The notes beneath the pieces were generated by a model. That model saw nothing but the letters and a program-made list of their open reading frames with translations, had not been told where the DNA came from and did not search any database. Source: Candidatus Kuenenia stuttgartensis (GTDB lineage: Bacteria > Planctomycetota > Planctomycetia > Pirellulales > UBA1268). From it: a stretch of 34,945 nucleotides of DNA. Made by a program: the position numbers and the translations under genes. Location: contig CAMCQY010000028.1 of NCBI GenBank assembly GCA_945877135.1, forward strand, positions 1 to 34,945, in the 5' to 3' direction. Below, piece after piece: positions 1 to 372 of the stretch (the stretch's first letter is position 1; the number at the start of each line of letters is the position of its first letter).

Positions 1-105
1 ACACGCGAAACATGGCATCCTGCCATTTTCGCTTGGCCGACCTCCGTCGGCTGGTGCTTACACGGGCCTCCGGCCCTGACGCTGATAGATACGACGTATC
101 CGTGA

Positions 106-237
106 GGGGCTGCCCATGTCCCGAGAGCCGGCGTTGCTGACCAGCGCAGGCAGGATGCCGAAGCGCAGTCAGCATCGAGTGAGCGGAGGCCATGGATGGC
201 CGGAGCGAACGTCCGGCGACGGGGCATGGGCAGCCCC
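106..237 (+). repeat. Palindromic element family, copy 1 (132 bp)
   Basis: The ends are a 17-bp terminal inverted repeat: GGGGCTGCCCATGTCCC at 106-122 and GGGGCATGGGCAGCCCC at 221-237, with one mismatch. The interior contains a nested stem (GTTGCTGAC near 132-140 against GTCAGCATC near 168-176, enclosing GCGC/GCGC and GGCA/TGCC) and a GGCCAT/ATGGCC hairpin near 187-200. Two further copies lie at 24456-24604 and 25625-25781. It encodes no protein and resembles a MITE- or REP-like non-autonomous element. It sits between the two structured units of this region. Confidence 0.8.
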
Positions 238-343
238 GAACCGTATATACGCCGAGCACGGCCATCGTGGCCGTCTCGGCTTGGCGGGCCTCCGCCCGCT
301 GGTGCTGACTCGGACCTCCGGGCCTGGCGATATGGACACCGAG

Positions 344-372
344 CCGACGTCAAGCACCCCGGCGGCTAGAAT
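344..372 (+). promoter_or_regulatory. Possible promoter of uvrC (leaderless)
   Basis: TAGAAT at 367-372 matches the -10 consensus at 5 of 6 positions. A poor -35 (CCGACG, 344-349) lies 17 bp upstream. The hexamer ends 6 nt before the GTG at 379, so transcription from it would begin at or near the start codon. No well-placed Shine-Dalgarno is visible; the GAGG at 373-376 is only 2 nt from the start. This is a pattern-based call only. Confidence 0.35.

Follow-up and report, generated by a model that had tools for sequence, protein, structure and literature searches.

The window analysed here, a stretch of 34,945 nt whose position 1 is the first base of a contig in a 3.92-Mb draft planctomycete genome, opens with two copies of a three-hairpin repeat, termed family A, followed by uvrC (379–1752). 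The gene was assigned from its ORF, its homologues and the congener loci, and its association with the units is not conserved; all these features lie on the plus strand. Unit 1 occupies 1–82 (85.4 bits with the covariance model R1), with its core at 3–58 and its left end (consensus CTG.NT[T/A]C) cut off at the contig start. Its first hairpin, H1 (5–32, GCGAAA-(C11 bulge)-ATGGCA-TCC-TGCCAT-TTTCGC), pairs 5–10 with 27–32 and 12–17 with 21–26, leaving C11 bulged and a TCC loop at 18–20. H2 (36–51, GCCGAC-CTCC-GTCGGC, 36–41 paired with 46–51) sits between the linkers CTTGG before and TGGTGCT after it, and H3 (64–76, GGGCC-TCC-GGCCC) pairs 64–68 with 72–76. Unit 2 spans 241–329, with the left end CCGTATAT and the core at 249–306. 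Its H1 (251–280, GCCGAG-(C257 bulge)-ACGGCCA-TCG-TGGCCGT-CTCGGC), placed by sequence, fold and R1, pairs 251–256 with 275–280 and 258–264 with 268–274 around a bulged C257 and a TCG loop, H2 (284–299, GCGGGC-CTCC-GCCCGC) pairs 284–289 with 294–299, and H3 (312–324, GGACC-TCC-GGGCC) is degenerate, with one A.G mismatch in the pairing of 312–316 with 320–324. Fold z-scores of the two units are -3.3 and -4.5.

An earlier note on this DNA had proposed that the units share one hairpin order, namely a bulged-C, a CTCC-loop and a TCC-loop hairpin, and sequence and folding bear this out, with the third hairpin the weaker. The TCC-loop hairpin stands in unit 1, but in unit 2 the MFE fold takes other partners for the degenerate stem, and the partial outer pairing said to follow is not consistent across family A. 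Two pairs have indeed changed between the H2 stems, both with compensation, whereas the reading that nearly all H1 stem bases differ was overstated, as 4 of the 12 pairs that can be aligned have changed, each with compensation, and one pair has been inserted. The likeness nevertheless lies beyond chance, as had been suspected: R1 (56 positions, 17 pairs), built from 16 genomic copies including unit 1 and without unit 2, scores unit 2 at 68.8 bits (E=1.8e-16), and the next-best place in the window reaches E=0.056.

Repeats beside the units and the locus of uvrC

Between the two units lies a separate 146-nt imperfect palindrome, family B (98–244, plus strand), defined by its copies, fold and alignment. 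No other repeat seen here is as abundant; family B has at least 40 copies, about 80–97% identical (fold z -9.0), and precedes uvrC in all four congeners, being cut short in G003 and carrying insertions in G002. Its side hairpin varies with compensation, reading GGCCATGGATGGCC, GGCAGGATGCC, GGGCAGGATGCCC or GGACAGGATGTCC (window 98–244; L002–L020), and some family A units are inserted into family B at GTTGCTG (L075, L138). Further along the window, 1773–1990 holds a tandem array of the 30-nt unit CATCCAAGCCCCTCCGCGCCAATCCCGTCC in 4.4 copies, then repeats of the family C type, CATCCAAGCCCGCAGCGCAAGCAAGGG and its inverted form.

The position of the units, 120–370 nt ahead of uvrC, might point to an RNA that regulates uvrC in cis or to a small RNA transcribed ahead of the gene, and the earlier note had considered a structured RNA here. 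Comparison of homologous loci went against an RNA tied to uvrC: family A is absent before uvrC in the congeners G001, G002 and G003 and in 18 more distant relatives, and G004 has one unit. The named relatives found by the uvrC search are for the most part planctomycete metagenome-assembled genomes (MAGs) from lakes and other environments, and the gene before uvrC in three of the four congeners, ending in ...ARPSGTEPKIKFYLF..., looks phosphomannomutase-like by its sequence. Moreover, the remaining copies of family A lie mostly behind the ends of unrelated genes instead of in front of genes, and a tRNA was the one Rfam family to reach gathering score in the window, with chance-level matches only for other copies. 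Since orthologous loci lack the units, a uvrC leader RNA is rejected, and a cis-regulatory or small upstream RNA of this kind is considered highly improbable.

Copies, architecture and spread of family A

The other possibility raised by the earlier note, a second repeat family, was confirmed: a covariance-model search of the genome and its relatives uncovered many further copies with compensated stems, and family A amounts to about 80 dispersed copies per genome, with compensated stem changes throughout. In this genome, R1 found at least 86 places with E no higher than 1, and about 80 of these had E<0.003. In total, 59 genomes were searched with R1. All five members of the genus, including the four congeners, carry 32–81 copies, while the spread in the rest of the same GTDB family is patchy, with 1–95 copies in about half of its other members. 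Outside that GTDB family, the same order included, family A is practically absent, with one weak R1 match (E=0.008). Among the genomes searched, family A is confined to one freshwater planctomycete family.

The element is about 88 nt long and is built in the order left end, H1, linker, H2, linker, H3, then often CAG. The consensus left end is CTG[A/T]NT[T/A]C-ACG and often reads CTGA; the left boundary is sharp, with conservation beginning abruptly at -8, eight bases ahead of the core, and exact left-end motifs number 33 against 0 in a reversed control. H1 has its bulged C and a TCC or TCG loop, the linker CTTGG leads to H2 with a CTCC or GCA loop, and the linker (C)TGGTGCTG leads to H3 with its TCC loop, around which at least seven unrelated stems occur. 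At other loci, family A also forms tandem arrays with periods of about 112–130 nt. At L036, L114, L115, L118, L132, L134, L135 and L138, a branched H1 variant contains the extra hairpin GGGCGGATGCCCGTCC (or ACAGGCGGATGCCTGT); this longer form has a second hairpin with a GGAT loop and retains the pairing of its outer stem (GCGA/TCGC or GAAA/TTTC). A recurrent sequence, GAGCCGGGGATCGGCGAAGGTGGAGGAGACGAGGAGGATGTCCGACTTG, termed family D, directly follows some units (L016, L045, L060, L061, L118).

The stems vary while the bulged C, the loops and the linkers are invariant, and the pairs are conserved by covariation, as in structured RNA elements. The 16-sequence alignment has pairs in 98.5% of its cells and shows 46 two-sided changes, compared with 41–50% and at most 8 when the partners were slid; as H1 is gapless in this alignment, the alignment itself cannot make the covariation signal. 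An alignment of 83 copies, which was fitted to R1 and hence biased toward the model, has 97.3% of its cells paired and 258 two-sided changes, where the slid controls reach no more than 51% and 33. The hairpins are also combined as a mosaic: 67 copies in the genome yield 61 distinct H1/H2/H3 combinations, and two H1 outer stems and two H2 stems occur in all four combinations.

Stop codons and turnover of whole hairpins

By a codon-usage method of our own, trained on the window and differing from standard annotation, a left neighbour was called for 66 copies. Of these, 57 lie in sense behind the 3' end of that gene, and 16 begin exactly with its stop codon (TGA, TAG or TAA). Convergent genes enclose 28 copies, divergent genes none. 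Four copies in other genera likewise start at a stop codon. Where empty orthologues could be compared, most end at the same codon as the filled ones, which shows that the gene itself provides the stop. The placement at stop codons suggests, from sequence, a putative role of family A as a 3'-end hairpin in RNA.

Such a placement can be read as that of an RNA element that works at mRNA 3' ends (as a terminator, an RNase-resistant end or a protein-binding site) and is kept by selection. The stem sequence would then be free to vary as long as structure, bulge and loops are preserved, and the covariation would reflect ordinary compensatory evolution. The strong covariation, the invariant bulged C, loops and linkers, and the copies lying in sense directly behind stop codons agree with this explanation, as does the fact that the same stop keeps its element in several congeners, for example at L114, L115 and L124. 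Some copies even carry an A-tract/T-tract outer stem (GAAAAA/TTTTTC) resembling a bidirectional intrinsic terminator, but many copies have no T-tract; as this holds for many H1 variants, the idea that the element is nothing but an intrinsic terminator was abandoned. Away from stops, the copies favour neither orientation clearly (about 8 versus 5), and compensated stems alone are no proof of RNA function, since mobile palindromes, in the cited passages on REPINs (PMC3116915), have them too.

The comparison of close relatives weighs further against a selected RNA element as the explanation. In total, 29 orthologous gene ends were compared with the closest congener, G001, and were assigned by eye from sequences of MAGs whose contigs often break at family A repeats: 13 have no element at the stop in G001 and five have a remnant (L111, L127, L132, L135, L137), even though the coding flanks are mostly 92–98% identical. 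The element is complete in G001 at the other 11 (L076, L079, L109, L112, L113, L114, L115, L116, L118, L124, L128). It is unchanged or nearly so at L079, L109 and L113; H2 only is replaced at L116, H1 only at L118, H1 and H2 at L112 and L114, and H1 and H3 at L128, while the H1 form and H3 have changed at L115, and L124 and L076 differ too. The replaced hairpins still fold. Whole hairpins were replaced in most of the 11 complete elements, each independently of the others, and this change by entire hairpins instead of pair by pair speaks against ordinary compensatory evolution. That the element at several loci persists after one and the same stop codon, in as many as five species, fits selection for function as well, and the explanation by a selected 3'-end RNA is regarded as possible, though doubtful.

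As for the marks of a MITE, no clean target-site duplication was found in the filled/empty pairs, and terminal inverted repeats amount at most to CTG...CAG at the ends of the element. The 62-nt direct repeat at L127 marks a tandem gain or loss and agrees as well with tandem duplication as with deletion. In three genera (L127 in G000, L094 in G017, L098 in G031), a family A element also seems to occupy one and the same convergent gene end; the shared flank is GTGCACGTC.GT.A.CC, and two of the three adjoin a direct repeat of about 20–60 nt.

Three further readings were discarded. Integron attC-like and hammerhead-like elements, judged by their generally known features, were dropped as the conserved boxes or the core in order are missing. 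Likewise, stop-codon readthrough was dropped because H1 varies in length between the simple and the longer branched form, and the frame is lost after the stop.

Proposed mobility, known repeats and the meaning of covariation

Family A is dispersed, non-coding, modular and of high copy number, is gained and lost between close relatives, and is mosaic by whole hairpins. It is best explained, with a probability that we put somewhat above even, as a mobile, recombining palindromic element of the REP/BIME/BOX kind that supplies putative 3'-end hairpins. Its spread and renewal would take place at the DNA level, through insertion plus short-tract recombination between copies. Recombination would swap a hairpin as one cassette, so the hairpin would stay paired; pairing is then kept without selection on single pairs, and selection for structure may act in addition. 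In transcripts, the element may serve as a generic 3'-end hairpin, with a predicted role as a termination aid or exonuclease barrier, which would make sites behind stops tolerable or favoured. An unlikely extension is a hairpin-cassette system, in which hairpins behind stops are exchanged whole between dispersed copies by a dedicated single-strand or hairpin-specific recombinase or transposase. If true, such a system would account for orthologous elements, in species whose genes are about 96% identical, that have unrelated, fully paired stems with fixed loops, bulge and linkers.

The planctomycete class-3 TnpA-Y1 transposases, of the HUH type, offer a candidate for the movement of family A, which would then be their non-autonomous partner. 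The genome contains a class-3-like TnpA-Y1 fragment with HVH, WAT and YVTECQ motifs, in line with the class-3 signature described for planctomycetes, where high-copy atypical secondary structures and a 5' CnGA foot are likewise reported (PMC6006769), and the left end of family A, often CTGA, could be taken as this foot. The TnpA-Y1 genes in this genome and in relatives are instead flanked by family C (AAGCCC.GAGCGCAAGCGACGGGA type), in the relatives on either side wherever both can be seen (L180, around 1105–2200; L182; L187; L051, 1–560), and an A-like unit was found at 1 of the 11 loci in these draft genomes. No such gene turned up in the drafts of three congeners that carry 32–81 copies of family A. 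A TnpA-Y1 flanked by the repeat, as in a REPtron/RAYT, was thus not seen for family A in the drafts examined, and no autonomous partner of it was found. Mobilisation by class-3 TnpA-Y1, attractive from the CTGA start, was rejected on account of the family C flanks, and we hold it to be improbable. TnpA-Y1 together with family C, on the other hand, is likely a REPtron of planctomycetes with a nameable repeat.

Among known systems, the REP/BIME/REPIN elements (PMC3733652, PMC3116915) are, in the passages cited, likewise short high-copy extragenic palindromes, single or clustered and mostly downstream of genes, with compensated stem changes and a proposed nature as mobile DNA affecting mRNA 3' ends. 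Family A shares the general REP traits of high copy number and an extragenic position mostly downstream of genes. Unlike REP elements, it strings together three distinct hairpins, always in one order and joined by conserved linkers, with a bulged C and with TCC loops, and it lacks the single 20–40 bp palindrome with an unpaired tag at one end that defines the GTAG and CGTC super-families. It measures about 88 nt against 20–40 for REPs as given in those passages, and no GTAG or CGTC tag was identified in it; the exact stop-codon starts and the whole-hairpin replacement between close relatives likewise set it apart from REPs as portrayed there.

The BOX elements of Streptococcus pneumoniae, as portrayed in the cited parts of PMC3049150, are also modular interspersed repeats that form structured RNA, cluster with other repeats and insert into them. 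Their modules vary in number, whereas in family A the number is mostly fixed and the module sequence is exchanged; no sequence relation between the two is known, and they were set apart by description and by the lack of an Rfam match. YPAL/RU-2 of Yersinia is palindromic and mobile and of comparable scale (168 bp); close relatives differ in which of its sites are filled or empty, and it is co-transcribed with upstream genes, but it differs in architecture and has target-site duplications according to the cited portion of PMC2229807, and none were found for family A. The planctomycete class-3 TnpA-Y1 structures differ in that their genes are flanked by family C instead of family A. In the passages cited, none of the REPIN, BOX and YPAL accounts describes exact stop-codon starts combined with whole-hairpin exchange.

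No description of planctomycete repeats of this kind was found in the open-access PMC literature. We file family A as a previously undescribed member of the interspersed palindromic repeats, belonging to none of the named families.

Covariation is routinely counted as proof of a selected RNA structure. In family A, strong covariation is probably made, at least largely, by hairpin swaps between dispersed copies, and these can be traced at orthologous sites. Family A is moreover a clear-cut example of repeats that begin exactly at stop codons. The stop-codon starts could make an old question testable, namely whether such repeats are parasites or parts of mRNA 3' ends, by comparison of filled, empty and swapped family A sites.
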